Positions 30,598-64,000 of a stretch of DNA of 64,000 nucleotides are shown here, piece after piece; the first letter of the stretch is position 1; every line of letters starts with the position of its first letter. The notes under the pieces are model-generated. The model did no database searches. It was not told where the DNA came from and saw nothing but the letters and a program-made list of their open reading frames with translations. The DNA comes from Bolinopsis microptera (taxonomy: Eukaryota > Ctenophora > Tentaculata > Lobata > Bolinopsidae). Location of the stretch: NCBI RefSeq assembly GCF_026151205.1, contig NC_087075.1, forward strand, positions 62,001-126,000. Reading direction: 5' to 3'. A program made the position numbers and the translations under genes.

Positions 30598-30741
30598 ATG
30601 GTTGGAGTTAGTTTGTTTTGACCTACAGCTGTTCACCTCCCTACCAGTAGCCAGAACCAGATTCCCTAGTTTATTAATGAAATATTAAATTTAATATTCT
30701 TTATTTGATCGAAACTGGTGTTGCGACAGTTGACTGGTTCA

Positions 30742-32085: not shown

Positions 32086-35000
32086 GCTTCAACTGTATTA
32101 TCATTACTGGACACTATCCCGCTCGACTGTATTATCATTACTGGACACTATCCCGCTCGACTGTATTATCATTACTGGACACTATCCCGCTCGACTGTAT
32201 TATCATTACTGGACACTATCCCGCTCGACTGTATTATCATTACTGGACACTATCCCGCTCGACTGTATTATCATTACTGGACACTATCCCGCTCGACTGT
32301 ATTATCATTACTGGACACTATCCCGCTCGACTGTATTATCATTACTGGACACTATCCCGCTCGACTGTATTATCATTACTGGACACTATCCCGCTCGACT
32401 GTATTATCATTACTGGACACTATCCCGCTCGACTGTATTATCATTACTGGACACTATCCCGCTCGACTGTATTATCATTACTGGACACTATCCCGCTCGA
32501 CTGTATTATCATTACTGGACACTATCCCGCTCGACTGTATTATCATTACTGGACACTATCCCGCTCGACTGTATTATCATTACTGGACACTATCCCGCTC
32601 GACTGTATTATCATTACTGGACACTATCCCGCTCGACTGTATTATCATTACTGGACACTATCCCGCTCGACTGTATTATCATTACTGGACACTATCCCGC
32701 TCGACTGTATTATCATTACTGGACACTATCCCGCTCGACTGTATTATCATTACTGGACACTATCCCGCTCGACTGTATTATCATTACTGGACACTATCCC
32801 GCTCGACTGTATTATCATTACTGGACACTATCCCGCTCGACTGTATTATCATTACTGGACACTATCCCGCTCGACTGTATTATCATTACTGGACACTATC
32901 CCGCTCGACTGTATTATCATTACTGGACACTATCCCGCTCGACTGTATTATCATTACTGGACACTATCCCGCTCGACTGTATTATCATTACTGGACACTA
33001 TCCCGCTCGACTGTATTATCATTACTGGACACTATCCCGCTCGACTGTATTATCATTACTGGACACTATCCCGCTCGACTGTATTATCATTACTGGACAC
33101 TATCCCGCTCGACTGTATTATCATTACTGGACACTATCCCGCTCGACTGTATTATCATTACTGGACACTATCCCGCTCGACTGTATTATCATTACTGGAC
33201 ACTATCCCGCTCGACTGTATTATCATTACTGGACACTATCCCGCTCGACTGTATTATCATTACTGGACACTATCCCGCTCGACTGTATTATCATTACTGG
33301 ACACTATCCCGCTCGACTGTATTATCATTACTGGACACTATCCCGCTCGACTGTATTATCATTACTGGACACTATCCCGCTCGACTGTATTATCATTACT
33401 GGACACTATCCCGCTCGACTGTATTATCATTACTGGACACTATCCCGCTCGACTGTATTATCATTACTGGACACTATCCCGCTCGACTGTATTATCATTA
33501 CTGGACACTATCCCGCTCGACTGTATTATCATTACTGGACACTATCCCGCTCGACTGTATTATCATTACTGGACACTATCCCGCTCGACTGTATTATCAT
33601 TACTGGACACTATCCCGCTCGACTGTATTATCATTACTGGACACTATCCCGCTCGACTGTATTATCATTACTGGACACTATCCCGCTCGACTGTATTATC
33701 ATTACTGGACACTATCCCGCTCGACTGTATTATCATTACTGGACACTATCCCGCTCGACTGTATTATCATTACTGGACACTATCCCGCTCGACTGTATTA
33801 TCATTACTGGACACTATCCCGCTCGACTGTATTATCATTACTGGACACTATCCCGCTCGACTGTATTATCATTACTGGACACTATCCCGCTCGACTGTAT
33901 TATCATTACTGGACACTATCCCGCTCGACTGTATTATCATTACTGGACACTATCCCGCTCGACTGTATTATCATTACTGGACACTATCCCGCTCGACTGT
34001 ATTATCATTACTGGACACTATCCCGCTCGACTGTATTATCATTACTGGACACTATCCCGCTCGACTGTATTATCATTACTGGACACTATCCCGCTCGACT
34101 GTATTATCATTACTGGACACTATCCCGCTCGACTGTATTATCATTACTGGACACTATCCCGCTCGACTGTATTATCATTACTGGACACTATCCCGCTCGA
34201 CTGTATTATCATTACTGGACACTATCCCGCTCGACTGTATTATCATTACTGGACACTATCCCGCTCGACCTGTATTATCATTACTGGACACTATCCCGCT
34301 CGACTGTATTATCATTACTGGACACTATCCCGCTTCGACTGTATTATCATTACTGGACACTATCCCGCTCGACTGTATTATCATTACTGGACACTATCCC
34401 GCTCGACTGTATTATCATTACTGGACACTATCCCGCTCGACTGTATTATCATTACTGGACACTATCCCGCTCGACTGTATTATCATTACTGGACACTATC
34501 CCGCTTCGACTGTATTATCATTACTGGACACTATCCCGCTTCGACTGTATTATCATTACTGGACACTATCCCGCTTCGACTGTATTATCATTACTGGACA
34601 CTATCTCGCTCGACTGTATTATCATTACTGGACACTATCCCGCTCGACTGTATTATCATTACTGGACACTATCCCGCTCGACTGTATTATCATTACTGGA
34701 CACTATCCCGCTCGACTGTATTATCATTACTGGACACTATCCCGCTCGACTGTATTATCATTACTGGACACTATCCCGCTCGACTGTATTATCATTACTG
34801 GACACTATCCCGCTCGACTGTATTATCATTACTGGACACTATCCCGCTCGACTGTATTATCATTACTGGACACTATCCCGCTCGACTGTATTATCATTAC
34901 TGGACACTATCCCGCTCGACTGTATTATCATTACTGGACACTATCCCGCTCACCTGTATTATCATTACTGGACACTATCCCGCTCACCTGTATTATCATT

Positions 35001-36139
35001 ACTGGACACTATCCCGCTCGACTGTATTATCATTACTGGACACTATCCCGCTCGACTGTATTATCATTACTGGACACTATCCCGCTCGACTGTATTATCA
35101 TTACTGGACACTATCCCGCTCGACTGTATTATCATTACTGGACACTATCCCGCTCGACTGTATTATCATTACTGGACACTATCCCGCTCGACTGTATTAT
35201 CATTACTGGACACTATCCCGCTCGACTGTATTATTATTACTGGACACTATCCCGCTTCGACTGTATTATCATTACTGGACACTATCCCGCTTCGACTGTA
35301 TTATCATTACTGGACACTATCCCGCTCGACTGTATTATCATTACTGGAAACTATCCCTCTCGACTGTATTATCATTACTGGACACTATCCCGCTCGACTG
35401 TATTATCATTACTGGACACTATCCCGCTCGACTTTATTATCATTACTGGACACTATCCTGCTCGACTGTATTATCATTACTGGACACTATCCCGCTCGAC
35501 TGTATTATCATTACTGGACACTATCCCGCTCGACTGTATTATCATTACTGGACACTATCCCGCTCGACTGTATTATCATTACTGGACACTATCCCGCTCG
35601 ACTGTATTATCATTACTGGACACTATCCTGCTCGACTGTATTATCATTACTGGACACTATCCCGCTCGACTGTATTATCATTACTGGACACTATCCTGCT
35701 CGACTGTATTATCATTACTGGACACTATCCCGCTCGACTGTATTATCATTACTGGACACTATCCTGCTCGACTGTATTATCATTACTGGACACTATCCCG
35801 CTCGACTGTATTATCATTACTGGACACTATCCCGCTCGACTGTATTATCATTACTGGACACTATCCTGCTCGACTGTATTATCATTACTGGACACTATCC
35901 CGCTCGACTGTATTATCATTACTGGACACTATCCTGCTCGACTGTATTATCATTACTGGACACTATCCCGCTCGACTGTATTATCATTACTGGACACTAT
36001 CCCGCTCGACTGTATTATCATTACTGGACACCATCCCGCTCGACTGTATTATCATTACTGGACACTATCCCGCTCGACTGTATCATCATTACTGGACACT
36101 ATCCCGCTCGACTGTATTATCATTACTGGACACTATCCC
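32086..36139. repeat. 34-bp satellite array, about 119 units (4.05 kb)
   Basis: The unit begins TATTATCATTACTGGACACT and continues ATCCCGCTCGACTG. From 32095 to about 34260 the units are essentially identical. From 34260 to 36139 variants appear: an extra T (CCGCTTCGACT, 35 bp), CCTGCTCG, CTCACCTG and others. The left 2.2 kb has therefore been homogenised or expanded recently while the right half has aged. The 1430- and 1360-codon frames across it exist because 34 is not a multiple of 3 and the unit lacks forward stops. Confidence 0.98.
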
Positions 36140-39297: not shown

Positions 39298-40012
39298 TTG
39301 GGACTGCACCGTCTGTAATGTCCTATATTGGGATGACTGCACCCTGTACCGTCTGTAATGTCCTATATTGGGACTGCACCCTGCACCGTCTGTAATGTCC
39401 TATATTGGGATGACTGCACCCTGCACCGTCTGTAATGTCCTATATTGGGACTGCACCCTGCACCGTCTGTAATGTCCTATATTGGGATGACTGCACCCTG
39501 CACCGTCTGTAATGTCCTATATTGGGATGACTGCACCCTGCACCGTCTGTAATGTCCTATATTGGTAGGGGTGCACCCTGTACCGTCTGTAATGTCCTAT
39601 ATTGGGACTGCACCCTGCACCGTCTGTAATGTCCTATATTGGGATGACTGCACCCTGTACCGTCTGTAATGTCCTATATTGGGATGACTGCACCCTGTAC
39701 CGTCTGTAATGTCCTATATTGGGATGACTGCACCCTGTACCGTCTGTAATGTCCTATATTGGGATGACTGCACCCTGCACCGTCTGTAATGTCCTATATT
39801 GGGATGACTGCACCCTGCACCGTCTGTAATGTCCTATATTGGTAGGGGTGCACCCTGTACCGTCTGTAATGTCCTATATTGGGATGACTGCACCCTGTAC
39901 CGTCTGTAATGTCCTATATTGGGATGACTGCACCCTGCACCGTCTGTAATGTCCTATATTGGGATGACTGCACCCTGTACCGTCTGTAATGTCCTATATA
40001 TAGGTAATATTG
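39298..40012. repeat. 34-40-bp tandem array, about 18 units
   Basis: Units contain CCGTCTGTAATGTCCTATAT and TGGGATGACTGCACCCTG. Two length classes occur (with and without ATGA after GGG), and two units carry TGGTAGGGGTGCACC instead. The two TGGTAGGGG units, near 39564 and 39840, are about 276 bp apart and suggest a larger duplicated block. The array ends at TATATATAGGTAATATTGGG. Confidence 0.95.
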
Positions 40013-41467
40013 GGATGATCCTGTACATGTCGACATCTCATCACCGTAAGTATCAATTTTGCTTGTACAAGACATTCATACGTTGCTAAGATACCAACTT
40101 CTAATCCAATAATACGATCATCAGCTCACACTTGACAAATGAAGCCATGTCTCGTATTATTTATTCTCTCCTCCTCTTTCATTAACATTGCAGCTTTAAT
40201 ACATGTAAGGTCGCGTTTATTGTTTGTTTTTTTAGAAACATGCTTGTGGCAGCAATGTTTACAAAACCAACTGTTTCTGATCGTGATAGATTTGAGTATT
40301 TGTTAAGTTTTTTGTAGTAAAGTAGGATTAGGGGCAATTTATTAGGGTCAAGTATATATTTAGGTTTTAGGGTTTTAGTACAGTTTTTGCCATAGTTATT
40401 TAATTCTTATAGTCCACAAGGGTAGACAAATTTCCCAGGCTTTCCATGCAGCATCTTTTAGAGCCCTTTTAGTGCAATAGTAATACAAAAGTACAAAGAA
40501 TGTATCAGCTCACTTCTTATCCCCTATATCACGAAGCTGGCGCATGATTGGCTCATATTGAACACGTGACATACTGTTACTATGGTTACAAAATTCGTGA
40601 CTTACATTCTGAGTCTCTAATCTCTATTAGTATTAATAACTTTTTTGTGTTTACCAGTTCTATATAAATTGCTCACTATTTCAGTTGATAAGCCTTGAAA
40701 TTTTAGGCCGAAATTTTACGTGTAATTCTATTGTGTCCCCGAAAGATATTTTGACCTGTTTTTTGTTTTGAAACTACCACTAAAATTTATGTTAAGAATT
40801 TGATCTTTTACTCTCATATTCAATGTCCATGATCAGACTGTGATCTCGAGCTCTCTGGGTTACTATAATTGTAGCCATTATAGTAAGTCTACTCCTTTTG
40901 ATGGTATAACCTGTATAGTGTATAAGCTGAATTAGTTTTTTATATTTAGGCCGGGTTTGTACTTGTAACTTTGTAAATATATTGTGTGCCGAATAGAAAC
41001 TTTTGACACCTCCAGTAAACGAATTACGTAAGTTATTAAAGGGTTGCGAGTGGACAGTTACTTTTGGGCCACCCTGTGTATATATATATGAGTAAAAGCA
41101 TTATTTGCTGTGCTCCCCCATATCTGCTTATAATGACCCCTGTCTATTAAGAGATACTGGAGCATTTCACTAATTGTCCTTATATAAAGAGCATAGCACA
41201 ACACATTAAGCACTATGTGAATGTCTTACAATGGAACAACCAATAGTGGCACTTTGGACTCGATAAGGAGCGTGACAATAGTCAATATTCACATTATTAA
41301 TAGCTCCACGTGCATATAACTCATTTAAATACATATCACTTTACACTCCACCCCTCCACGTGCGGGGTACACGTGCAGGGTGCACGTGCAGCATATTGAA
41401 CATGATAAACAAATTCACTCTGGTACCCTATAATCATAGGCTCATTGTAATGAGATTGCCGTTCTAT
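40013..41467. other. Non-coding stretch
   Basis: No gene is recognised. Near 41360-41391 there are three GCACGTG/CACGTGC words in a short degenerate repeat. Confidence 0.35.
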
Positions 41468-41696: not shown

Positions 41697-42308
41697 TTTG
41701 TAGGGTTTCATAGAATCCTCTATCGGGCCATCGAAAAAGTCGACCCCCCGGACAGTGTAGAAACTGTTTTATCACCACTCCAATCAAGCAAGGAGTTTCC
41801 ATTCCGACGGCTGTATCCTGGAGCTGGAGGCTCGTCCGGAAATGACTTCACAAAGTTCGTTAAAGCTACTTTGAATTGCATAGGATCCTCGATGGTGTGC
41901 ATATGTGTTGGGATTACATTCCATAATCGAGGTCCAGTGACTGCAAATGAGTTGTCATGTAGTGCTTGATTACGTTGACTGCTGGACTTAGCTATACTGG
42001 GCACAACTGCTTTTTGACCATGTCTGAGAGTCACCGAGAACTGGATACCAATATCATTAGGGCACTTGCAATGCAGAACTTTCCACATGTTGATGATTAA
42101 ATACCGTTCTCTTCTTCTTTGCAATGACATCAGATCTAGGGCCTTTAATCTCTGCCAGTAGTTGAGGTGCTGGGTGCCATCTATTTTCGATGTAAACGTA
42201 CGCTGAATCCCTTCTAGCTGTCGGATGTCCTTGTTCTTAGAGCAATTCCACAGAGGACAGCAATACTCCAGATGGCTTCTAACGAGAGACTTGTACAGAG
42301 TCATCATT
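41697..42308 (-). mobile_element. 5'-truncated LINE copy, same family as 1294-1806
   Basis: The minus strand encodes 195 residues (41720-42307): MTLYKSLVRSHLEYCCPLW, then the KIDGTQHLNYW... tail, ending FSMAR. The first motif is the RT C-terminal 'SHLEYC..LW' box. It is longer at its 5' end than the copy at 1294 and has one residue difference in the shared part (FKVALTN against FKAALTN), so the two insertions are young and closely related. Its 3' end carries the same CAAAGTAACAAAGTAAGTA tail against the minisatellite. Confidence 0.85.
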
Positions 42309-42470
42309 ATATAATATTACACTATATTTATTACATTATGTATCATTATCATTTTACTACTTTCATTACGCATCAATTCTTTATCATTTTACTACTTTCA
42401 TTACGCATCAATATTTTTCCTCTGTAATCTACCTTTTCTTATCGCACTGAGCTTGTGATTTATACTGATC

Positions 42471-44240
42471 ATGCGACGAAATTCTACACCTAATACCTCT
42501 ACACCTACATCATCCCAGAGGAAGAAACTAGCTTCTAAAGCTGCTTCTGAGTCAATCGCTGACTCAGAAGCACCTCCTATCGGTATGTTGGGGCTTGGGG
42601 TGTCAGGGAATTACACGTTTGCAGCAACAACATGCCTTCACTTGTTAAGCTTACTGCCTGCTCCCGATTTAGATTTTGAGTTCGAAAGACTCCGCCTCCT
42701 TTCGAAAAGTGCTACTAAAGCAAGCACAACGGACAACAAAATTTCTTTTTTACGGAAACATTTATTAGGCCAATGTGCCCTAGACGCTGACGAGACAATG
42801 AACAAATTAACTGCGAGTCTAAAACTCATTTCATGTACCGTTAATGAAGAGGTTGAGAAGGCGGTCAACAGCATCACGGAACGAGCCTGCACTGCGATCC
42901 AGGAAGTCTCTGAAGAGTCCAGGAAGCAGACCTCTCTCATCGTTGAAGCAGCTAGCAGTAGTTCTCCACAGACTCTCTCCCCTTCCGGTGAAGTAGAAAG
43001 TATACCTAACCCACCACCTCCGGTAAGATTTTTGGACTGTGACTTTGGTGAACTTTCTTTTGATGAAATCTACCGCGAGCTTGACTTTAACATGAAACAC
43101 CCGGGGGGCCGTTCAACGTCATATTTTGGCTCGGTACCTTACAGTTATGGCAGAACCAACCACCGTGCAACCCATGATAAGCCCTTGCCACCTGTCCTAC
43201 AGCGCATTTTTGATTGTTTGCATAAATCTGATCCTGACATTACCCCCACGAACTACACCTGCCTCTGTACTTACTATAAGGACGGGTCAGTTGGTATTCC
43301 ATTGCATAGTGACAGCGAATCTAGCATTGTAGAAGATAGTCTGATTTACACTGCATCATTTGGCTCTACCAGAATTATGAGAATGTCAACGTCGACAGGC
43401 CCTTTCGTTGAGCATAACATCCCGCTTGAGCACGGCTCTGTCTTTGCAATGTCTCGATCTGATCAGAACCACTGGCAGCACGGCATTGAACGTGATCCTA
43501 TGTTAAGGCAGCCACGAATCTCGTTCACTCTTCGCAAGTTGAAACAGCCTGATCCCACGGCCTTGCCAGCACCTGCAGCCCCTACTCGGGTCCCGCCTGT
43601 TGCACCACCTACACAGATACAGTCACCAACGTCCCGTCACTCCAGAGTCCTCTTCATTCACGACTCAATACACCGAGAAACACCAGAATGGCTGTTCGAC
43701 CAGATACCTGGCCACCGATGTCAAAAGCGCCTTAACTATCAACTAGTGAACTCACTGGAACATCAACATGAGTTCAAACATTCTAAAGCAGTCGTACTTT
43801 CCTGCGGCATTAATGACCTAGCTAGGTATGGGCAGTCGGCCAGGAGTCTTGCGGACAATTTCTGTCCCCGTTTTATAGACTCTTGTAACAATAACAAGAA
43901 TACCGAGTTTATGTTTTGTGCTTTATCTATGACTAAATTTAACTGGTTGAATGCAGAGATTGACGCTTTTAATATCATAATGTTGAACCTGGCTAAGGAT
44001 ATTCCAAATCTGAGTTTTTTCGATGCCCATGCCGTGATCAAGCGTGTTAACTCATACTACGTATGGGACCGCAACGACAGACATGGCATCCACTTATATC
44101 ACGAGGTGCAAAGGGTAATGGCACATGAACTTGTTAACTGCGTTGGCAAGTTATGTGGATCTGAACAGAGACGTCACAGGAACTGTGAGTGGCTCTATCA
44201 CCACAAGCCTAACAGTCTCTCCAGATATAACCGAAGCTGA
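42471..44240 (+). CDS. LINE ORF1: AlkB-like 2OG-Fe(II) dioxygenase plus SGNH hydrolase domain
   Basis: 589 residues starting MRRNSTPNTS. The N-terminal ~180 residues are low-complexity and probably helical (EEVEKAVNSITERACTAIQE). Residues ~190-360 look like AlkB: YFGSVPYSYGRTNH, LPPVLQRI, NYTCLCTYYKDGSVGIPLHSDSE with the HxD iron ligands at about 278/280, a distal His in NHWQHGIE (about 334-338), and RISFTLR giving the RxxxxxR that grips 2-oxoglutarate. AlkB enzymes oxidatively remove methyl groups from nucleic-acid bases. Residues ~393-560 resemble an SGNH/GDSL esterase: VLFIHDSIH (block I, HDS in place of GDS), CGINDL (block III) and DRHGIHL (DxxH). An SGNH-type esterase in ORF1 is known for CR1 LINEs; I do not recall the AlkB fusion as a standard arrangement. 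ORF2 of the same element follows. Confidence 0.8.
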   Translation: MRRNSTPNTSTPTSSQRKKLASKAASESIADSEAPPIGMLGLGVSGNYTFAATTCLHLLSLLPAPDLDFEFERLRLLSKSATKASTTDNKISFLRKHLLGQCALDADETMNKLTASLKLISCTVNEEVEKAVNSITERACTAIQEVSEESRKQTSLIVEAASSSSPQTLSPSGEVESIPNPPPPVRFLDCDFGELSFDEIYRELDFNMKHPGGRSTSYFGSVPYSYGRTNHRATHDKPLPPVLQRIFDCLHKSDPDITPTNYTCLCTYYKDGSVGIPLHSDSESSIVEDSLIYTASFGSTRIMRMSTSTGPFVEHNIPLEHGSVFAMSRSDQNHWQHGIERDPMLRQPRISFTLRKLKQPDPTALPAPAAPTRVPPVAPPTQIQSPTSRHSRVLFIHDSIHRETPEWLFDQIPGHRCQKRLNYQLVNSLEHQHEFKHSKAVVLSCGINDLARYGQSARSLADNFCPRFIDSCNNNKNTEFMFCALSMTKFNWLNAEIDAFNIIMLNLAKDIPNLSFFDAHAVIKRVNSYYVWDRNDRHGIHLYHEVQRVMAHELVNCVGKLCGSEQRRHRNCEWLYHHKPNSLSRYNRS

Positions 44241-44869: not shown

Positions 44870-47800
44870 ATGGAACCCACTGTTACATCTGAAAACAAAG
44901 TCAAGATCAAATGTTCAAGCTGCAGCGGCTGGTGTTACTCTATTAGAAATATTCGCACATGCTCATGGTGTCAAAGTAATGTCCATGTCAAATGTTTTAA
45001 GGATAATTTAGGCTGTACGAGTTGCTGTGAAAGTATCATTCCTGGATTTCACGCAACCTACTATGAAATCTATGACGACTACAGTAAACTTAATAGTGAC
45101 ATATTTAATCCGTACGATCAGAATAGTCGATTTAATCTTATTGGCGACGCCATGACCAACGAAGAGCATCAAGATTCAACTTGGAGCAATATTTCATCTT
45201 TCCTAACTAGTTGTCAGTATAAACAACAACGTAACGTGAAAAAATCTACCTGCTCTCAACTTAAAACATTTTCTATGAACATAAGATCCCTTATTAAGAA
45301 TATAGATCAACTACGTGATGATATTGAGACTTATGATAAGTATGATATATTGTGTTTTAACGAAACTAATTGCACTTTAGGGAAATTACCGAACGGAATA
45401 AACGACGTTACCTTAGATGGATTTCATGAACCATTTATCCAGGATCCAATTCGCCCATCTGGAAAAGGTGGGGGGCTAGCCACTTATGTACACAAACGTG
45501 TAGTCGATTATGATAAAATTGATATTTTCACTCCAAACCCTGAACCAACTAATACTAGTGGCGAATTCCAATTTATCAAGCTCCATCAGTGCAAAGGATA
45601 CAACAGAACGAAAATAATTGGCAATGTTTACCGTTCTCCCGCTAGGAGACCTGAAGCGTTTCTAGAAATTTTCAAAAATACGCTGCACAACCTAGGGAGA
45701 CACACCCGTAAACATATGACGCTTCATGGAGATTTCAACCTTGATTTACTGAAGCACAGCAGCGACCAAGCATGTCAGAACATTATAGATATTGCGTCCT
45801 CTTACGGTTTTATTCAAATTGTATCACGCCCAACTCGCCTAACGGACCATAGTGCCACGCTTATTGACCACATCTACACAAACAATCTTGAGGATACAAT
45901 AAGCTGTAACGTCTTAACGACAGATATGTCTGATCACTTAGCAATAGTCACTACAATAAATCTTGATAACACGCCAACCAGCAGCTACCGCTCTGCGTCT
46001 AACTCACAAAATGTATCTCAAACTGAAACACGTAGATTTAACGACACCAACAATCAAAAATTCAGAGACTTAATTACAGATGAAAGTTGGTCAGAAATTT
46101 TTAACAATACCAATGATGCCAACGAACAGTTCAATAATTTAAATACGGCTTATAATAAGATTTACGAGTCTGCCTATCCCACAAAAAGACAATCACGAAG
46201 ACAAAATGAACGTGTTAATCCGAAACCATGGATGCTGCCCTGGCTCGAAGAAGCTATAGAACGTAAAAATGAGTCATATTATGATTTTGTTAAGGAACCA
46301 TCTGATAGTAACCGCAGTAAATATGACCGTCTGAAGAAGTTTTGTAATAAACACATCGATAAAGCTAAAAACAAGCACTTCAAAAAATTTTTTGAGCAAA
46401 ACAAAGAAAATTCTAAGAAGCAGTGGCAAATGATAAACAGTCTTCTTAATAGGAAAAAATCTAAACCTACTTCAATTAAACTGACTGACGAAGACGGCTC
46501 AATCAGCACTCCGGCAGCTGTAGCAGAAAAATTTAACGATTACTTCTCAAACATCGCTCCTAAAATTAAGTCTGAAATTAGTAGTAGGACCACTTTTGAT
46601 CCTGGTGGAACCCATAGCACACTTCGCAACGCCACTCCAAGTAGTATTTACTTAAAGCCAGTCACTGCCACAGAAATTCAGGACGTCATAAACCTGCTTA
46701 AGAATAAAGCCACACTAGACACTAAAATTGAACCTCTAAAAATCGCTAACAGCTGTCCCAGTTTTACTAGTGTACTAGCCCACGTTGTCAACAGTTCTTT
46801 TGAACAGGGGATCTTTCCACAGGCTTTGAAAGAAGCGAAGGTGGTCCCAATTCACAAAGGTGGATCTAAATCTGACATAAAAAATTACAGGCCAATATCT
46901 CTTCTTGCTTCTTTCTCTAAAGTATTTGAAAAGCTAATGCATAACCGAGTTATAAGTTTTTTAGATAAATACAGCATACTATGTGAAAACCAATACGGTT
47001 TTCGCCCGGGTAGGTCTTGTGAACATGCTCTTCTCAACGCAAAAGACACCATTCTTAATTCAATGTCTAAAAAGCAGGTAACTTTACTTCTTTTAATCGA
47101 CTTCAGCAAAGCTTTCGACCTTGTGGATCATTCCATACTCTTGCGCAAGCTGGACCATTACGGCATAAGGGGTCAAGCCTTAAACTGGTTTAAGTCATAT
47201 CTCACTAACAGGAAACAGTTTGTATCAATTGGCTCGTCAAAATCTTCAACCAACCAAATTTTATACGGCGTGCCTCAAGGGTCAATATTAGGACCTTTAC
47301 TTTTTATAATCTACATAAACGACCTACCTCAAATATCAGATATAGCAAATTTCATTATGTACGCAGATGATGCCAACATCTTCCTGATAGGAGAAAATCT
47401 TAATGAAGTTTACGATAAACTAATAACTCTTAGCGATGCTTTAGTTAAATGGGTAGATAATAATGGTTTAGCTCTCAACCTTAAGAAAACAAATTATATG
47501 ATCTTCTCTCGACAAAGAAATCTTAATTATCGTGATGTGGCAATTTCTGGTGTCACAATTGAGAGAAAAACAGAAGCCCGTTTTTTAGGAGTTATAATAG
47601 ATGATAAACTAAACTGGTCCCATCATATTTCTGCCATGAAAATGAAAATGTCCAGATACATAGGAGTCATGTACAAACTTAAAAAATATCTGCCTCTCGA
47701 AGCACGTCTTCAAATTTATCAAAGTTTTGTGCAGTCACACCTTAATTATTGCAGCCTTGTATGGGGTTTTGCTGCCAAGTCTCATATTGAATCGCTTTTT

Positions 47801-48343
47801 GTAAAACAGAAAATGGGCCTTCGAGCAGTATTACCTGGTTTCGTCAATTACTGGTACAAGGACGGTATCCCCCCAGCAAGTACCAAGTCTGGCTTTTATT
47901 CACATAAAATATTGACAGTACACAGTATCATTGTAAAGAACGCACTCATTTTAATGCATAAATTGAAAAACTTTCCTAATCTAGTACCATTGTCTCTCAA
48001 GAAAACAATTCCCAAAAGTGCACCATTATTTAATACTAACCTGGATTCTATTCTCACTACACAATGGTCAGAAAAGTATGGTCAACACCCTTACAACAAC
48101 TCAGTATTTTTTAAAGGTCCATTATTAGCAATAAACCGATATAATGTTGCAGCAACTTCCCCGCCTAGTCTATTTAACCTGAACATTTACAAAACTTGTA
48201 TAAAAACTATGCTCATCGATCAGCAAAATGAAAACATCGAAGACGATTGGCCTAATTTCATGTTATATTGTATAACAGGACTAAGAAAATCAAAGCGTAA
48301 CATAAACCAAAATGCCGATAATAACCTTGTCTCTACATCTTAG
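44870..48343 (+). CDS. LINE ORF2: zinc finger, APE-type endonuclease, reverse transcriptase
   Basis: 1157 residues, starting MEPTVTSENK. Residues 14-65 hold a PHD/RING-like cluster (CSSCSGWCYS, CSWCQSNVHVKCF, CTSCC). The endonuclease spans ~130-370: SMNIRSL, FNETNC, GGGLATYVHK, GDFNLDLL, IDHIYTNN and MSDHLAIVT, covering the catalytic Asn, Glu, Asp and Asp-His positions. The RT spans ~640-880: VVPIHKGG, NYRPISLLASFSKV, FRPGRSCEHALL, LIDFSKAFDLVDH, YGVPQGSILGPLLF and the catalytic YADD. The C-terminal region (SHLNYCSLVWG, GPLLAINRYNVAATSPPSLF) matches the copy at 2863-3357. All catalytic motifs are present, consistent with a functional target-primed retrotransposition enzyme. Confidence 0.92.
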   Translation: MEPTVTSENKVKIKCSSCSGWCYSIRNIRTCSWCQSNVHVKCFKDNLGCTSCCESIIPGFHATYYEIYDDYSKLNSDIFNPYDQNSRFNLIGDAMTNEEHQDSTWSNISSFLTSCQYKQQRNVKKSTCSQLKTFSMNIRSLIKNIDQLRDDIETYDKYDILCFNETNCTLGKLPNGINDVTLDGFHEPFIQDPIRPSGKGGGLATYVHKRVVDYDKIDIFTPNPEPTNTSGEFQFIKLHQCKGYNRTKIIGNVYRSPARRPEAFLEIFKNTLHNLGRHTRKHMTLHGDFNLDLLKHSSDQACQNIIDIASSYGFIQIVSRPTRLTDHSATLIDHIYTNNLEDTISCNVLTTDMSDHLAIVTTINLDNTPTSSYRSASNSQNVSQTETRRFNDTNNQKFRDLITDESWSEIFNNTNDANEQFNNLNTAYNKIYESAYPTKRQSRRQNERVNPKPWMLPWLEEAIERKNESYYDFVKEPSDSNRSKYDRLKKFCNKHIDKAKNKHFKKFFEQNKENSKKQWQMINSLLNRKKSKPTSIKLTDEDGSISTPAAVAEKFNDYFSNIAPKIKSEISSRTTFDPGGTHSTLRNATPSSIYLKPVTATEIQDVINLLKNKATLDTKIEPLKIANSCPSFTSVLAHVVNSSFEQGIFPQALKEAKVVPIHKGGSKSDIKNYRPISLLASFSKVFEKLMHNRVISFLDKYSILCENQYGFRPGRSCEHALLNAKDTILNSMSKKQVTLLLLIDFSKAFDLVDHSILLRKLDHYGIRGQALNWFKSYLTNRKQFVSIGSSKSSTNQILYGVPQGSILGPLLFIIYINDLPQISDIANFIMYADDANIFLIGENLNEVYDKLITLSDALVKWVDNNGLALNLKKTNYMIFSRQRNLNYRDVAISGVTIERKTEARFLGVIIDDKLNWSHHISAMKMKMSRYIGVMYKLKKYLPLEARLQIYQSFVQSHLNYCSLVWGFAAKSHIESLFVKQKMGLRAVLPGFVNYWYKDGIPPASTKSGFYSHKILTVHSIIVKNALILMHKLKNFPNLVPLSLKKTIPKSAPLFNTNLDSILTTQWSEKYGQHPYNNSVFFKGPLLAINRYNVAATSPPSLFNLNIYKTCIKTMLIDQQNENIEDDWPNFMLYCITGLRKSKRNINQNADNNLVSTS

Positions 48344-50445: not shown

Positions 50446-51772
50446 AGTGAGCTGAGACATTAACAGGAACAGTAGCAGGGACGTAGCCAGGATTTTTCTT
50501 TGAGGGGGGCTGTCGGCGAGCGAAGCGAGCCGACGCGTCCAATCAAGCTGCGCAGCGAGCGAAGCGAGCAAGCTGTGGCAGGGGTCTGGGGGCGCAGCCC
50601 CCAGCGGGGTCCAGGGGCAGCCCCCCGGAAATTTTTTGCGAAACAGGGTGTTTTAGACGACATTTGGCATTAAAGAAATTTGTAGGACAGCAATAAACTG
50701 GGATTGAAAAGAATCAAGTACTCACGTAAATTTGGTAACTTCACAACAGCAATCTGCATTCTCCAATCAGAATTTACGACTTACTCAGGCCTCATCGTCT
50801 TAAGATTTTTACATTTCCTACGGTCTAGGGGACACTATTGACTATAATTATAGAAGTCTTCTAGAATGTTTGCTTGGATTTAATGACATATATTTACTAA
50901 TCCACAGTTCAAATCTTTGACTGACTGCAGTCATAAACACAGCCCAGTTACCAGGCGACCATGGGGACTAGGGGGCTTATCTTTTTTCTGGGGTTCGATT
51001 TTTTCCGGGGGGGGGCTGCCGCCCCCCTAGCCCCCCCCCCCCCCCCCCCTGGCTACGTGCCTGAACAGTAGTAACAGAGCTCTCCTTGTGAGAGACGTTA
51101 ACAGGAACAGTAGTAACAGAGCTCTCCTTGTGAGAGACGTTAACAGGAACAGTAGTAACAGAGCTCTCCTTGTGAGAGACGTTAACAGGAACAGTAGTAA
51201 CAGAGCTCTCCTTGTGAGAGACATTAACAGGAACAGTAGTAACAGAGCTCTCCTTGTGAGAGACGTTAACAGGAACAGTAGTAACAGAGCTCTCCTTGTG
51301 AGAGACGTTAACAGGAACAGTAGTAACAGAGCTCTCCTTGTGAGAGACGTTAACAGGAACAGTAGTAACAGAGCTCTCCTTGTGAGAGACATTAACAGGA
51401 ACAGTAGTAACAGAGCTCTCCTTGTGAGAGACGTTAACAGGAACAGTAGTAACAGAGCTCTCCTTGTGAGAGACGTTAACAGGAACAGTAGTAACAGAGC
51501 TCTCCTTGTGAGAGACATTAACAGGAACAGTAGTAACAGAGCTCTCCTTGTGAGAGACATTAACAGGAACAGTAGCAACAGAGCTCTCCTTGTGAGAGAC
51601 GTTAACAGGAACAGTAGTAACAGAGCTCTCCTTGTGAGAGACATTAACAGGAACAGTAGTAACAGAGCTCTCCTTGTGAGAGACGTTAACAGGAACAGTA
51701 GTAACAGAGCTCTCCTTGTGAGAGACATTAACAGGAACAGTAGTAACAGAGCTCTCCTTGTGAGAGACGTTA
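50446..51772. repeat. 42-bp tandem array, about 17 full units plus a detached partial unit
   Basis: The unit reads GTTAACAGGAACAGTAGTAA, CAGAGCTCTCCTTGTGAGAG, AC. Full units run from about 51064 to 51772; a partial unit (GAGACATTAACAGGAACAGTAG) lies at 50454-50475, cut off by the transposon at 50476-51063. Because 42 is a multiple of 3, several frames stay open on both strands. The main variable site (ACGTT/ACATT) is synonymous in the minus-strand frame that reads VNVSHKESSVTTVP. No start, domain or splice signal makes a gene likely. Confidence 0.95.
50476..51063. mobile_element. Non-autonomous hAT-type DNA transposon (588 bp) inside the 42-bp array
   Basis: The left end is CAGGGACGTAGCCAGG; the right end is CCTGGCTACGTGCCTG. 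These form a 16-bp inverted repeat with one mismatch. The 8-bp direct repeat AACAGTAG flanks it at 50468-50475 and 51064-51071. Just inside the ends are GC-rich arms with GGGGGCGCAGCCCCC-like and poly-C/poly-G tracts, and GAGCGAAGCGAGC words. No transposase is encoded. It is a different subfamily from the element at 14.3 kb. Confidence 0.9.
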
Positions 51773-52131
51773 ATAGAATTGCACGTGCTGATTAGAGTGC
51801 ACACTGAACGTTATATATATATATAATATAATATAATATAATATATATATTATTTGTAAGTAGGTGTTGTGGCTTGTGCTGCAGCCTGCGTTACTACTAC
51901 CACTCCAATAATGTCATGGTTTGGGTGATAATTCTTTAAGCGTACCCTGCAGTTTAAAGTGACGTCATATATAGAGATATAGGGACAGTATCAGTTGCGG
52001 AGATATGTAAGCATGATTTGGAACATTACTTGCAGTTACTTATTTAGAGACAACAGAGATTGCGTCATAATTGTTCCATTTGATACCTCTAATACTAATG
52101 ATTATACTTACTTGTACTTGATTAGGTCTCC
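51773..52131. other. Short non-coding spacer
   Basis: Contains an AT dinucleotide-type tract at about 51811-51853 and probably the 3' UTR of the RTE-type LINE (minus strand) next to 52131, with AAGTA-like words (AAGTACAAGTAAGTATAAT). Confidence 0.45.
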
Positions 52132-55659: not shown

Positions 55660-58600
55660 ATGGCACTACATTTAAATAACTCTGAGATGGTGCAGTACAG
55701 TGTTATCACCAGTAACTCTCTCTCCACCGTTCTGGGCATTTACACTGTTCTTAGTCTTATCGTGGGTACGTTATCATATTCATACCCCCAACCCCCATTA
55801 TTATTCATACCCCCAACCCCCATTATTATTCATATTTTTAGGTTTTGAGTCGATTTTTACTAAATCTTTACATTAATACCTACGAGAAGCAATAGATAGG
55901 TAGTGCACCCCCTACAATAGATAGGTAGTGCACCCCCTACACTAGATAGGTAGTGCACCCCCTACAATAGATAGGTAGTGCACCCCCTACACTAGATAGG
56001 TAGTGCACCCCCTACACTAGATAGGTAGTGCACCCCCTACACTAGATAAGTAGTGCACCCCCTACACTAGATAGGTAGTGCACCCCCTACAATAGATAGG
56101 TAGTGCACCCCCTACAATAGATAGGTAGTGCACCCCCTACACTAGATAGGTAGTGCACCCCCTACAATAGATAGGTAGTGCACCCCCTACAATAGATAGG
56201 TAGTGCACCCCCTACAATAGATAGGTAGTGCACCCCCTACACTAGATAGGTAGTGCACCCCCTACACTAGATAGGTAGTGCACCCCCTACAATAGATAGG
56301 TAGTGCACCCCCTACACTAGATAGGTAGTGCACCCCCTACACTAGATAGGTAGTGCACCCCCTACACTAGATAGGTAGTGCACCCCCTACACTAGATAGG
56401 TAGTGCACCCCCTACACTAGATAGGTAGTGCACCCCCTACACTAGATAGGTAGTGCACCCCCTACAATAGATAGGTAGTGCACCCCCTACACTAGATAGG
56501 TAGTGCACCCCCTACACTAGATAGGTAGTGCACCCCCTACAATAGATAGGTAGTGCACCCCCTACACTAGATAGGTAGTGCACCCCCTACACTAGATAGG
56601 TAGTGCACCCCCTACAATAGATAGGTAGTGCACCCCCTACACTAGATAGGTAGTGCACCCCCTACACTAGATAGGTAGTGCACCCCCTACACTAGATAGG
56701 TAGTGCACCCCCTACACTAGATAGGTAGTGCACCCCCTACAATAGATAGGTAGTGCACCCCCTACAATAGATAGGTAGTGCACCCCCTACAATAGATAGG
56801 TAGTGCACCCCCTACACTAGATAGGTAGTGCACCCCCTACACTAGATAGGTAGTGCACCCCCTACAATAGATAGGTAGTGCACCCCCTACAATAGATAGG
56901 TAGTGCACCCCCTACACTAGATAGGTAGTGCACCCCCTACACTAGATAGGTAGTGCACCCCCTACAATAGATAGGTAGTGCACCCCCTACACTAGATAGG
57001 TAGTGCACCCCCTACACTAGATAGGTAGTGCACCCCCTACACTAGATAGGTAGTGCACCCCCTACAATAGATAGGTAGTGCACCCCCTACAATAGATAAG
57101 TAGTGCACCCCCTACAATAGATAAGTAGTGCACCCCCTACAATAGATAGGTAGTGCACCCCCTACAATAGATAGGTAGTGCACCCCCTACACTAGATAGG
57201 TAGTGCACCCCCTACAATAGATAAGTAGTGCACCCCCTACACTAGATAGGTAGTGCACCCCCTACAATAGATAAGTAGTGCACCCCCTACAATAGATAAG
57301 TAGTGCACCCTCTACACTAGATAGGTAGTGCACCCCCTACAATAGATAGGTAGTGCACCCCCTACAATAGATAGGTAGTGCACCCCCTACAATAGATAAG
57401 TAGTGCACCCCCTACACTAGATAGGTAGTGCACCCCCTACAATAGATAGGTAGTGCACCCCCTACAATAGATAGGTAGTGCACCCCCTACAATAGATAGG
57501 TAGTGCACCCCCTACAATAGATAGGTAGTGCACCCCCTACAATAGATAAGTAGTGCACCCCCTACACTAGATAGGTAGTGCACCCCCTACAATAGATAGG
57601 TAGTGCACCCCCTACAATAGATAGGTAGTGCACCCCCTACAATAGATAGGTAGTGCACCCCCTACAATAGATAAGTAGTGCACCCCCTACACTAGATAGG
57701 TAGTGCACCCCCTACAATAGATAGGTAGTGCACCCCCTACAATAGATAGGTAGTGCACCCCCTACAATAGATAGGTAGTGCACCCCCTACACTAGATAGG
57801 TAGTGCACCCCCTACAATAGATAGGTAGTGCACCCCCTACAATAGATAGGTAGTGCACCCCCTACAATAGATAGGTAGTGCACCCCCTACAATAGATAAG
57901 TAGTGCACCCCCTACAATAGATAGGTAGTGCACCCCCTACAATAGATAGGTAGTGCACCCCCTACAATAGATAGGTAGTGCACCCCCTACAATAGATAGG
58001 TAGTGCACCCCCTACAATAGATAAGTAGTGCACCCCCTACAATAGATAGGTAGTGCACCCCCTACACTAGATAGGTAGTGCACCCCCTACAATAGATAGG
58101 TAGTGCACCCCCTACAATAGATAGGTAGTGCACCCCCTACAATAGATAAGTAGTGCACCCCCCTACAATAGATAGGTAGTGCACCCCCTACAATAGATAG
58201 GTAGTGCACCCCCTACAATAGATAGGTAGTGCACCCCCTACAATAGATAGGTAGTGCACCCCCTACAATAGATAGGTAGTGCACCCCCTACAATAGATAG
58301 GTAGTGCACCCCCTACAATAGATAAGTAGTGCACCCCCTACACTAGATTGGTAGTGCACCCCCTACAATAGATAGGTAGTGCACCCCCTACAATAGATAG
58401 GTAGTGCACCCCCTACAATAGATAGGTAGTGCACCCCCTACAATAGATAGGTAGTGCACCCCCTACACTAGATTGGTAGTGCACCCCCTACAATAGATAG
58501 GTAGTGCACCCCCTACAATAGATAGGTAGTGCACCCCCTACAATAGATAGGTAGTGCACCCCCTACACTAGATAGGTAGTGCACCCCCTACACTAGATAG

Positions 58601-61600
58601 GTAGTGCACCCCCTACACTAGATAGGTAGTGCACCCCCTACAATAGATAGGTAGTGCACCCCCTACAATAGATAGGTAGTGCACCCCCTACAATAGATAG
58701 GTAGTGCACCCCCTACAATAGATAGGTAGTGCACCCCCTACAATAGATAGGTAGTGCACCCCCTACAATAGATAAGTAGTGCACCCCCTACAATAGATAG
58801 GTAGTGCACCCCCTACAATAGATAGGTAGTGCACCCCCTACAATAGATAGGTAGTGCACCCCCTACAATAGATAGGTAGTGCACCCCCTACAATAGATAG
58901 GTAGTGCACCCCCTACAATAGATAGGTAGTGCACCCCCTACAATAGATAAGTAGTGCACCCCCTACACTAGATTGGTAGTGCACCCCCTACTATAGATAG
59001 GTAGTGCACCCCCTACAATAGATAGGTAGTGCACCCCTACAATAGATAGGTAGTGCACCCCCTACAATAGATAGGTAGTGCACCCCCTACACTAGATTGG
59101 TAGTGCACCCCCTACAATAGATAGGTAGTGCACCCCCTACAATAGATAGGTAGTGCACCCCCTACAATAGATAGGTAGTGCACCCCCTACACTAGATAGG
59201 TAGTGCACCCCCTACACTAGATAGGTAGTGCACCCCCTACACTAGATAGGTAGTGCACCCCCTACAATAGATAGGTAGTGCACCCCCTACAATAGATAGG
59301 TAGTGCACCCCCTACAATAGATAGGTAGTGCACCCCCTACAATAGATAGGTAGTGCACCCCCTACAATAGATAGGTAGTGCACCCCCTACAATAGATAGG
59401 TAGTGCACCCCCTACAATAGATAGGTAGTGCACCCCCTACAATAGATAGGTAGTGCACCCCCTACAATAGATAGGTAGTGCACCCCCTACAATAGATAGG
59501 TAGTGCACCCCCTACACTAGATAGGTAGTGCACCCCCTACACTAGATAGGTAGTGCACCCCCTACAATAGATAGGTAGTGCACCCCCTACAATAGATAGG
59601 TAGTGCACCCCCTACAATAGATAGGTAGTGCACCCCCTACAATAGATAGGTAGTGCACCCCCTACAATAGATAGGTAGTGCACCCCCTACACTAGATAGG
59701 TAGTGCACCCCCTACAATAGATAGGTAGTGCACCCCCTACACTAGATAGGTAGTGCACCCCCTACAATAGATAGGTAGTGCACCCCCTACAATAGATAGG
59801 TAGTGTACCCCCTACAATAGATAGGTAGTGCACCCCCTACAATAGATAGGTAGTGCACCCCCTACACTAGATTGGTAGTGCACCCCCTACAATAGATAGG
59901 TAGTGCACCCCCTACAATAGATAGGTAGTGCACCCCCTACTCTAGATTGGTAGTGCACCCCCTACAATAGATAGGTAGTGCACCCCCTACAATAGATAGG
60001 TAGTGCACCCCCTACAATAGATAGGTAGTGCACCCCCTACACTATATTAGTTAACAGCTCTGACCAGGTCTAGTTGGGAACGTTGTAGTATTTTGGACGA
60101 TAAACCGAATGAAGCAGAGCAATATAGGAATAGACCATTTCTCTAACATCTTGGTGCAGCACCTGGCCATCGCGGATGTTATGTACAGTGTTGTAGCGGT
60201 GATACCTGCTGCCTTTGTCCACTTTTGCAGAAGGTATGAAAATCTATGTACAATCTGTAACGTATAATGTACTATGTATAATGTACACTTGTTGCAATTA
60301 TTAGTTTTTATCAAAATTCGGGTTCGGTACTCGTTGGCGTGAAACAGTGTGGGATTTGTCTCACACACAATTCCGGACCCCAACATTCCCTCTTCCTAAA
60401 ACAGCCCCCCCCCCCCCCCCCCCCATGACGACTGCCCCCACTAGGTGGCCGTTAGGAGACACCCCCCCCCCTATGACGACTGCCCCCCACCCACCCCCCC
60501 CCCCCCCCCCCATGACGACTGCCCCCACTAGGTGGCCGTTAGGAGACACCCCCCCCCATGACGACTGCCCCCACTAGGTGGCCGTTAGGAGAAACGAGAA
60601 ACCCCCCCCCCCCCCATGACGACTGCCCCCACTAGGTGGCCGTTAGGAGACACCCCCCCCCCCCTATGACGACTGCCCCCACTAGGTGGCCGTTAGGAGA
60701 CACCCCCCCCCCCCTATGACGACTGCCCCCACTAGGTGGCCGTTAGGAGACACCCCCCCCCCCCCTATGACGACTGCCCCCACTAGGTGGCCGTTAGAAG
60801 ACACCCCCCCTATGACGACTGCCCCCACTAGGTGGCCGTTAGGAGACAACCCCCCCCCCTATGACGACTGCCCCCACTAGGTGGCCGTTAGAAGACACAC
60901 CCCCCCCTGACGACTGCCCCTCTAGGTGGCCGTTAGGAGACACCCCCCCCCCCCCCCCCCATGACGACTGCCCCCACTAGGTGGCCGTTAGGAGACATCC
61001 CCCCCCCCCCCCTATGACGACTGCCCCCACTAGGTGGCCGTTAGGAGACACCCCCCCCCCCCCTATGACGACTGCCCCCACTAGGTGGCCGTTAGGAGAC
61101 ACCCCCCCCCTATGACGACTGCCACTAGGTGGCCGTTAGGAGACACCCCCCCCCCCCCCCCCCCTATGACGACTGCCCCCACTAGGTGGCCGTTAGGAGA
61201 CACCCCCCCCCCCCCCCCCCTGACGACTGCCCCTCTAGGTGGCCGTTAGGAGATACCACCTGTTATATGTCTGGTATTCTGATCTACGTGCCCTTGGTTG
61301 CTGACATCCACTTCATCATGGCCCTTTCTCTTCACCGTTTCCTCTTCTGCTCTTCTCCTCTCAGGTAAGCATTATACTATCCATCACTATACTATCGATC
61401 ACTATACTATTCTCATTATATATAATATAGATATCATGGGAAACTGCTTATCACAAACATTTGTGGAGTAGCTGAAAGCATTGTATTGTTCAGGTACGGG
61501 ATACTGGTAACTAGAAAGTAAGCATTGTATTGTTCAGGTACAGGATACTGGTAACTAGAAAGTAAGCATTGTATTGTTCAGGTACGGGATACTGGTAACT

Positions 61601-62976
61601 AGAAAGTAAGCATTGTATTGTTCAGGTACGGGATACTGGTAACTAGAAAGTAAGCATTGTATTGTTCAGGTACGGGATACTGGTAACTAGAAAGTAAGCA
61701 TTGTATTGTTCAGGTACAGGATGCTGGTAACTAGAAAGTAAGCATTGTATTGTTCAGGTACGGGATACTGGTAACTAGAAAGTAAGCATTGTATTGTTCA
61801 GGTACGGGATACTGGTAACTAGAAAGTAAGCATTGTATTGTTCAGGTACAGGATACTGGTAACTAGAAAGTAAGCATTGTATTGTTCAGGTACGGGATAC
61901 TGGTAACTAGAAAGTAAGCATTGTATTGTTCAGGTACGGGATACTGGTAACTAGAAAGTAAGCATTGTATTGTTCAGGTACAGGATGCTGGTAACTAGAA
62001 AGTAAGCATTGTATTGTTCAGGTACGGGATACTGGTAACTAGAAAGTAAGCATTGTATTGTTCAGGTACGGGATACTGGTAACTAGAAAGTAAGCATTGT
62101 ATTGTTCAGGTACGGGATACTGGTAACTAGAAAGTAAGCATTGTATTGTTCAGGTACGGGATACTGGTAACTAGAAAGTAAGCATTGTATTGTTCAGGTA
62201 CGGGATACTGGTAACTAGAAAGTAAGCATTGTATTGTTCAGGTACAGGATGCTGGTAACTAGAAAGTAAGCATTGTATTGTTCAGGTACGGGATACTGGT
62301 AACTAGAAAGTAAGCATTGTATTGTTCAGGTACGGGATACTGGTAACTAGAAAGTAAGCATTGTATTGTTCAGGTACAGGATACTGGTAACTAGAAAGTA
62401 AGCATTGTATTGTTCAGGTACGGGATACTGGTAACTAGAAAGTAAGCATTGTATTGTTCAGGTACGGGATACTGGTAACTAGAAAGTAAGCATTGTATTG
62501 TTCAGGTACGAAATACTGGTAACTAGAAAGTAAGCATTTTATTGCTCAGGTACGGGATACTGGTAACTAGAAAGTAAGCATTGTATTGTTCAGGTACGGG
62601 ATACTGGTAACTAGAAAGTAAGCATTGTATTGTTCAGGTACGGGATACTGGTAACTAGAAAGTAAGCATTGTATTGTTCAGGTACGGGATACTGGTAACT
62701 AGAAAGTAAGCATTGTATTGTTCAGGTACAGGATGCTGGTAACTAGAAAGTAAGCATTGTATTGTTCAGGTACGGGATACTGGTAACTAGAAAGTAAGCA
62801 TTGTATTGTTCAGGTACGGGATACTGGTAACTAGAAAGTAAGCATTATATTGTTCAGGTACGGGATACTGGTAACTAGAAAGAGAGCTAATTTCACTGTG
62901 GCATTTATTTGGGTATATTCCAGCTGCTGTTCCGTCATCACAGCCTTCAGCAAGGGAGAGGTCCACTTCTTTCCGG
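55660..62976 (+). CDS. Class A (rhodopsin-like) GPCR, exons 1-4 (N terminus to TM4); gene runs off the window
   Basis: Four exons join in frame with GT-AG introns: 55660-55765, 60068-60233, 61239-61364 and 62858-62976 (phases 1, 2, 2, 1). The 172 residues read as a seven-helix receptor up to TM4. A short N terminus has an Asn-Asn-Ser glycosylation site. TM1 carries GNVVVF (Gly39-Asn40). TM2 carries LAIADVMYSV (Asp72, the sodium-site Asp). ECL1 is WPLGDTTC with the conserved Trp and Cys99. TM3 ends LSLHRF, so the DRY motif is HRF. ICL2 is PLRYGILVTRK. TM4 contains FIWVYSS (Trp151). The coding frame is broken only by the introns. Ligand cannot be told from this half. The next exon probably begins with the DSAMCR codons of the 39-bp array, continuing the frame into ECL2. 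Residual doubt: no transcript evidence, and TM5-TM7 lie outside. Confidence 0.85.
55780..55843. repeat. Short tandem repeat in intron 1, after the donor
   Basis: CATACCCCCAACCCCCATTA followed by TTATT occurs twice as a ~25-bp repeat directly downstream of the intron 1 donor GTACGT at 55766. Confidence 0.85.
55891..60044. repeat. 25-bp satellite array filling GPCR intron 1, about 166 units
   Basis: The unit is ATAGGTAGTGCACCCCCTAC followed by AATAG or ACTAG. Most variation is at three sites: A or C in ACA/CTAG, G or A in ATAGG/ATAAG, and GATTGG in a few units. ACTAG units are commonest in the left third and AATAG in the rest. Blocks repeat at a higher level: the series starting at the GATTGG unit near 58466 recurs near 59096, about 625 bp (25 units) later. 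Each unit contains GTAGTG and a CTAG/ATAG end after a C-rich tract, a weak splice-site look-alike, but it does not copy the start of exon 2. Confidence 0.97.
60405..61238. repeat. Tandem array of the exon 3 splice acceptor in GPCR intron 2 (15 decoy copies)
   Basis: Each unit has a poly-C run, (TA)TGACGACTGCCCCCACTAG, then GTGGCCGTTAGGAGACAC. The real exon 3 follows the same acceptor (CCCCTCTAG at 61230-61238) and begins GTGGCCGTTAGGAGAT. So 15 upstream units each reproduce the pyrimidine tract, the AG and the first 15-16 bases of exon 3. Units vary from about 40 to 65 bp through the length of the C run. The minus strand is correspondingly rich in G runs. The Pro-rich frames here are by-products. 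Confidence 0.93.
61475..62857. repeat. 44-bp array of acceptor plus exon 4 start in GPCR intron 3 (31 decoy copies)
   Basis: Each 44-bp unit is GTAAGCATTGTATTGTTCAG (20 bp) plus a 24-bp copy of the start of exon 4 (GTACGGGATACTGG...GAAA). The first copy of that 24-mer is at 61494-61517 and the real exon 4 starts at 62858, exactly 31 x 44 bp later. The nine bases GTAAGCATT equal the true intron 3 donor at 61365-61373. Only the last copy continues into AAGAGAGCTAATTTC, the TM4 codons. Variants are few (ACAGGATGC, ACAGGATAC, ACGAAATAC). Confidence 0.96.
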
Positions 62977-63032
62977 GTTAGTAGTGTACTGATGTAGACA
63001 AAACTCTTGATTTAAATCGTTATCCTTATCTC

Positions 63033-64000
63033 TAGAGTAAGTCACCTCACTATTTCAGATAGTGCTATGTGTAGAGTAAGTTACCTCACTATTTCAGATA
63101 GTGCTATGTTTAGAGTAAGTCACCTCACTATTTCAGATAGTGCTATGTGTAGAGTAAGTCACCTCACTATTTCAGATAGTGCTATGTGTAGAGTAAGTCA
63201 CCTCACTATTTCAGATAGTGCTATGTGTAGAGTAAGTCACCTCACTATTTCAGATAGTGCTATGTGTAGAGTAAGTCACCTCACTATTTCAGATAGTGCT
63301 ATGTGTAGAGTAAGTCACCTCACTATTTCAGATAGTGCTATGTGTAGAGTAAGTCACCTCACTATTTCAGATAGTGCTATGTGTAGAGTAAGTCACCTCA
63401 CTATTTCAGATAGTGCTATGTGTAGAGTAAGTCACCTCACTATTTCAGATAGTGCTATGTGTAGAGTAAGTCACCTCACTATTTCAGATAGTGCTATGTG
63501 TAGAGTAAGTCACCTCACTATTTCAGATAGTGCTATGTGTAGAGTAAGTCACCTCACTATTTCAGATAGTGCTATGTGTAGAGTAAGTCACCTCACTATT
63601 TCAGATAGTGCTATGTGTAGAGTAAGTCACCTCACTATTTCAGATAGTGCTATGTGTAGAGTAAGTCACCTCACTATTTCAGATAGTGCTATGTGTAGAG
63701 TAAGTCACCTCACTATTTCAGATAGTGCTATGTGTAGAGTAAGTCACTTAGTCACCTCACTATTTCAGATAGTGCTATGTGTAGAGTAAGTCACCTCACT
63801 ATTTCAGATAGTGCTATGTGTAGAGTAAGTCACCTCACTATTTCAGATAGTGCTATGTGTAGAGTAAGTCACCTCACTATTTCAGATAGTGCTATGTTTA
63901 GAGTAAGTCACCTCACTATTTCAGATAGTGCTATGTGTAGAGTAAGTCACCTCACTATTTCAGATAGTGCTATGTGTAGAGTAAGTCACCTCACTATTTC
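63033..64000. repeat. 39-bp array with acceptor, mini-exon and donor in GPCR intron 4 (about 24 copies, continues)
   Basis: The unit is GTAAGTCACCTCACTATTTC then AG, followed by a 17-nt segment (ATAGTGCTATGTGTAGA; first copy 63059-63075) that ends at the next GTAAGT. Joined to exon 4 (one spare base, G), the 17-mer reads D-S-A-M-C-R, in frame and with a Cys where ECL2 normally has one. By analogy with introns 2 and 3, the true exon 5 probably lies beyond 64000 as the last copy. One irregular unit (GTCACTTAGTCACC) occurs near 63745. The 240-codon frame over it is an effect of the 39-bp period. Confidence 0.93.

Follow-up and report, generated by a model that had tools for sequence, protein, structure and literature searches.

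How did the introns of one receptor gene come to consist of tandem copies of the following exon's splice acceptor and first codons, and do these copies lie idle in the introns or serve as usable exon material? The first-pass annotation raised this question for a GPCR gene at 55660–64000 of the 64,000-nucleotide stretch of DNA analysed here (the window). Its observation on the introns of this gene was real in large part. The reading that we favour, with a probability of about 0.78, is a plain minisatellite expansion of the type described as "mirages" in amphioxus, with the last acceptor used in splicing.

The receptor gene and its exons

The 3′ part of the window contained, on the plus strand, the start of a rhodopsin-type (class A) GPCR gene, visible as its first four exons. 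According to the gene model and homology, exon 1 runs from the ATG at 55660 to 55765, exon 2 (GLVGN...LAIADV) occupies 60068–60233, exon 3 (WPLGDTTC...SLHRFLFCSSPLR; 126 nt) 61239–61364, and exon 4 (YGILVTRKRANF...; 119 nt) 62858–62976. Spliced via GT-AG introns, the four exons gave a single open frame of 517 nt; introns 1 and 4 were in phase 1, and introns 2 and 3 in phase 2. The predicted product matched Pfam 7tm_1 with an E-value of 1.5e-19 (profile positions 1–128 of 260) and a beta-3 adrenergic receptor chain with an E-value of 7.1e-17, a match that does not identify the ligand. The query for both matches included five residues from the first copy of the intron 4 array. The open spliced frame and the two matches confirmed the assignment as a GPCR gene.

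The alignment with the beta-3 adrenergic receptor was gap-free through RWPLGDTTC and PLRYGILVTRKRA, which are the array-exon joins at exon 3 and exon 4, respectively. In this alignment, exon 3 starts within RWPLG and exon 4 within PLRYG. Gap-free homology over both joins is expected if the last array copies are the ones used, and it bears out the proposal that the genuine exon is the last copy in introns 2 and 3.

Tandem arrays in introns 1–4

The existence of arrays in introns 1–4 was beyond doubt. Intron 1 (55766–60067, plus strand, by TRF and the gene model) was 4302 nt long, and 97% of it was a 25-bp array. The array, with 166 copies of the unit CAATAGATAGGTAGTGCACCCCCTA at 55890–60041 (TRF score 7742), was purely intronic; it ended 26 nt upstream of the acceptor and contained no exon sequence. 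Because of this, the claim that every intron of the gene is built from the border of the next exon was too strong. The other part of that claim, namely that three consecutive introns hold different arrays, was reproduced by TRF for introns 2, 3 and 4, with periods of 50, 44 and 39 (scores 1012, 2702 and 1843). We also considered whether units 1–4 might be copies of one another and rejected this, as BLAST found each unit in its own array only, bar a single match of 13 bases of unit 4 at 40672–40684.

Intron 2 (1005 nt, 83% array) held its array at 60407–61257 on the plus strand, with a unit of ~50 bp that includes a poly-C tract of variable length and crosses the 3′ splice site. Fifteen decoys, each consisting of an acceptor and the start of exon 3, preceded the final copy, which is the real exon 3 start; one additional unit, near 60490, has lost its acceptor. 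The exonic stretch common to the decoys and exon 3 was 15 nt, exact in 13 of the 15 decoys. The acceptor was CCCCCACTAG in 13/15 decoys, GCCACTAG in 1/15 and CCCCTCTAG in 1/15, the last form being that of the real acceptor. The first-pass count of 15 decoy acceptors in this intron was therefore correct, whereas their description as identical was not, given three forms among 15; similarly, the shared exon start is 15 bases long here and not 16, while the 24 bases given for intron 3 were right.

In intron 3 (1493 nt), 93% of the length was a 44-bp array, located at 61476–62882 on the plus strand. The unit comprised a 20-nt intronic part, GTAAGC...TTCAG, followed by the first 24 nt of exon 4. The gene model returned the 31 decoy acceptors counted earlier, and the final copy forms the genuine start of exon 4. 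The array was homogeneous: 22/31 copies had the commonest form, and in 23/31 the 24 exonic nucleotides were identical to the start of exon 4. GTAAG was present in 31 copies. Within 61494–62857, spacings of 6, 7 and 12 units each gave two coincidences between variant copies, and a spacing of 11 gave one, which hints weakly that blocks of units were duplicated inside the array.

The array of intron 4 (63033–64000, plus strand) made up 95% of the visible part of the intron and reached the end of the window. Its 39-bp unit consisted of GTAAGT...TTTCAG (22 nt) and ATAGTGCTATGTGTAGA (17 nt); 19 of 22 complete 39-mers had the commonest form, and GTAAG was found in 25 copies. The window contained 24 acceptors of this array, in agreement with the earlier count, and ends before the real acceptor and exon 5. 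The exon-4 frame does continue through the array, as had been claimed, up to an 8-bp insertion at ~63748. By analogy with arrays 2 and 3, this array probably spans an acceptor-exon border as well; the "same form" ascribed to intron 4 is an analogy because its exon 5 falls outside the window.

Long, near-identical arrays and poly-C are hard to assemble, so the copy numbers may be wrong, and the gene is visible only as its first four exons. Such features would fit an assembly artefact or a dead gene. Against this explanation, the copies differed by scattered point variants and joined cleanly to unique exon sequence, and the four exons retained an open frame and GPCR motifs. We regard it as very improbable.

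Coding capacity of the decoys

The first-pass annotation also proposed that the process has left either many decoy acceptors or a reservoir of mini-exons. In a functional version of the reservoir idea, alternative acceptors and mini-exons would vary the second intracellular and second extracellular loops of the receptor. Read-through from a decoy into the real exon was open in 0/15 cases in intron 2 (2/15 in phase) and in 0/31 cases in intron 3 (10/31 in phase). Of the 24 decoys of intron 4, the final 6 were open to the window end, and the other 18 precede the frame-shifting 8-bp insertion near 63748. These counts mostly contradict a reservoir of usable acceptors.

As a spliced-in cassette, the 24-nt mini-exon of intron 3 would be the sole part to keep the frame. 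Spliced at its GTAAG, it would add YGILVTRK, and a gene model with two extra intron 3 copies gave an open translation with YGILVTRK repeated. The 39-nt unit of intron 4 was likewise open in the exon-4 frame, as part of an ORF of 257 codons whose end lies past the 8-bp insertion. Both features would suit a reservoir. The 17-nt mini-exon of intron 4, however, would break the frame, and the introns separating adjacent mini-exons would be 20–22 nt long, which is below the usual minimum for spliceosomal introns. Coding constraint on the exonic parts of the decoys was considered and rejected: in array 3, minority bases filled 13/744 exonic versus 3/620 intronic cells, the cells being non-independent owing to shared variants, so the exonic part was the more variable one. 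Since most decoys are not open and those of array 3 show no exonic constraint, we consider a general reservoir unlikely; the copies have the behaviour of plain minisatellite DNA. The functional version, with varied receptor loops, seems to us highly doubtful.

Splice signals and placement of the arrays

The intronic parts of units 3 and 4 open with GTAAGC and GTAAGT, respectively, and close with TTCAG. Because the units also carry GTAAG, each copy of arrays 3 and 4 resembles a mini-intron with a mini-exon, a likeness that may be taken as a weak lead. It invites the alternative that a process targeting intron-exon borders has repeatedly made such units, either by repair or template switching among splice-site-like sequences, or by duplication of a whole small intron together with the exon start. 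That three consecutive introns are affected, each at its acceptor, would fit such a process. The unit of array 2, however, has no GTAAG, and array 1 reaches no exon. The GTAAG expected by chance was 0.038 per unit for unit 3 and 0.033 for unit 4, and both carry one; the motif was spotted after the fact.

Further support for targeted borders came from the true donor of intron 3, as 9 of the 13 nt that follow GTAAG in array 3 agreed with this donor region. A likeness of 9 positions also occurred at 100 of 49014 non-array positions (0.2%), and when the arrays are excluded, 41 GTAAG sites remain, of which one scored 9 and the next best 7. Against this stands intron 4, the donor region of which was unlike unit 4 (9/22 positions agreed, with the common GT counted), and the leftmost copy of array 3, from which the GT is missing. 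Moreover, U1 pairing did not single out the GTAAG sites, with values of -4.5 in unit 3 and -5.9 in unit 4, compared to -5.0 to -7.3 at other sites in the units, apart from one at -2.5. The real donors gave -5.6 and -5.7 (the weaker ones) and -7.0 and -11.0 (the others). The GTAAG sites were accordingly rejected as "strong decoy donors", being near the weaker real donors and below the others.

The placement of the arrays was compared with a null in which a unit-sized seed falls anywhere overlapping the array-free intron, intron 4 being scored as spanning and on its visible part only. The array-free length, defined as intron minus array with the intronic part of one unit kept, was 175, 207, 131 and at least 78 nt for introns 1–4. 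Under random placement, the probability of spanning the acceptor was 0.12, 0.19, 0.25 and 0.33, respectively. For three or more of the four arrays to span the acceptor, P was 0.033, and it rose to 0.22 when either border was allowed. The value of 0.033 is low yet not compelling, and it depends on the chosen null. The three border arrays were all at acceptors and none at donors, an outcome of 1 in 8 if both borders are equally likely.

The earlier proposal that one process has repeatedly amplified intron-exon borders thus holds as far as the borders are amplified; with P of 0.033 and 0.22, there is no need to invoke a special process that targets borders. In addition, the viral contigs searched yielded no confirmed relatives for an ancestral-state reconstruction. 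We consider a targeted process unlikely. A further possibility is that border duplications are currently creating or remodelling the introns of this GPCR gene. Such a process could yield new introns and could also insert eight residues in frame into an intracellular loop of the receptor; we rate this possibility as improbable. Units 3 and 4 would then be complete mini-introns (20 or 22 nt) with mini-exons (24 or 17 nt), and unit 3 would have captured the true donor, a view of the units that appears equally doubtful.

Other features of the window

The surroundings of the gene were rich in minisatellites, with 14 arrays accounting for 23% of the window, and for 13% when positions 1–55659 are taken alone. 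These arrays, used for coverage and for masking, were hand-picked from the TRF list. The 23% is a low estimate because it omits six additional loci (at 17456, 17924, 22482, 22949, 42346 and 55777), whose TRF scores were 116–188. The 34-bp array at 32079–36139 (119 copies, 99% matching) carried three overlapping plus-strand ORFs of 1381–1434 aa, which were repeat-derived. Three distinct arrays with units of 18, 7 and 19 bp lay inside ~1.5 kb at 29846–31373, and the 42-bp array at 51063–51773 (17 copies), with a unit length that is a multiple of three, had open frames on both strands. The 40-bp array at 39304–39999 was examined as a candidate exon-bordering array and rejected; by eye, a decayed version of part of the unit recurs in the flank on its right. 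The Pfam search beyond the GPCR covered 15 window ORFs (6 + 9), 11 of which came from the 33-ORF list (one shortened), with shorter ORFs left out, and it does not make the arrays outside the gene exon-free.

Mobile elements were also apparent. The same two tandem repeats (units of 36 and ~24–25 bp) were present at 17456–18048 and 22482–23070, ~5.0 kb apart, and fragments of reverse transcriptase, RNase H and integrase were found between them on the minus strand. The two regions are perhaps the long terminal repeats of an LTR retrotransposon. One part of the plus-strand ORF 866–1768 matched a glycosyltransferase weakly (E 0.014, below the cut-off), and the tail of this ORF was, by eye, almost identical to the end of the minus-strand ORF 41720–42316, which had no Pfam match. 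This tail may be the end of a retroelement that was inserted into the gene or became fused to it. ORF 42459–44240 contained a 2OG-Fe(II) oxygenase domain (E 5.3e-19) and adjoins the ORF with endonuclease and reverse transcriptase at 44870–48343; it may perhaps be the first ORF of that LINE.

Viral contigs, a collection that would hardly include animals, were searched by pattern for relatives of the LINE and the GPCR; this gave matches, none of which was confirmed by tblastn. The same was true of the 2OG-Fe(II) ORF in prokaryote genome contigs, where animals are hardly expected. Rfam and tRNA scans of the window returned no match.

Probable mirage-type expansion and known systems

The favoured mirage-type expansion has its observed basis in the anatomy of the introns, the open spliced frame, the GPCR homology of the final copies in introns 2 and 3, the uniformity of the units in arrays 3 and 4, and the failure of most decoy frames. 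We counted against it the restriction of the arrays to acceptors, the GTAAG in units 3 and 4, and the placement P of 0.033. The expansion would have started from short introns, of perhaps ~80–210 nt in the ancestral gene, in a minisatellite-rich stretch of the genome. In introns 2 and 3, and probably also in intron 4, a short segment across the 3′ splice site would have undergone tandem duplication, and the resulting units would have expanded through slippage or unequal exchange, presumably in independent events. Because all copies lie upstream of the last, intact acceptor, they would stay intronic as long as the spliceosome pairs this acceptor with the real downstream donor. Exon definition may favour the last copy, given that exon 3 has 126 nt and exon 4 has 119 nt, whereas decoy exons would be 17–24 nt long, out of frame or stopped.

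The first-pass annotation knew of no described gene with this design in every intron. Repeats of this kind have been published, however: PMC3087553 describes amphioxus "mirages" as minisatellites spanning exon-intron borders, in Adh3 and the globins BflGb6 and BflGb9. The Adh3 units are 10–72 bp long, and many mirage copies have AG/GT signals; the BflGb6 haplotypes have 3 and 6 units, and the globin mirages occur at both intron borders (PMC3087553). According to the same paper, Adh3 data and globin RT-PCR suggest undisturbed regular splicing. PMC3902484 adds PGBD5, with units of 60 and 108 bp in 2–7 copies, and cites troponin C.

The GPCR introns fit the anatomical definition of mirages, in a strong form, and belong to a kind already published. 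As in amphioxus, the units contain an intron end and an exon start in introns 2 and 3 and, by analogy, in intron 4, but not in intron 1. Here too the copies carry splice signals (15, 31 and 24 acceptors, and GTAAG in 31 + 25 copies), and GPCR homology identifies the authentic exon as the terminal copy for exons 3 and 4. Relative to the amphioxus cases as far as the sources describe them, two and probably three consecutive introns of one gene are affected here, the upstream copies number 15, 31 and at least 24 in place of 3 and 6 (BflGb6) or 2–7 (PGBD5), and the border arrays are all at the acceptor.

Two other systems were compared. In potato RdRp, a border-crossing duplication with a new intron was detected (PMC4974935). 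The duplication there also lies over an intron-exon boundary, and the exonic piece of the upstream copy turns intronic and supplies the donor; unlike the multi-copy arrays here, the potato case is one duplication, and its new intron was detected. In fish, the GPCR genes MC2R, MC5R, P2Y receptors and CHRM3 have novel introns at proto-splice sites, some of them ultrasmall and one in the DRY motif (PMC3151243). These share with our locus their position within GPCR genes, although the abstract of that report mentions no border-spanning tandem arrays.

The GPCR arrays offer a strong natural test of how splicing settles on one acceptor when dozens share its local sequence. They also test the idea, proposed from the amphioxus globins in PMC3087553, that border-spanning minisatellites such as mirages can seed new introns. 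If the host is not a cephalochordate, mirages are not confined to cephalochordates.
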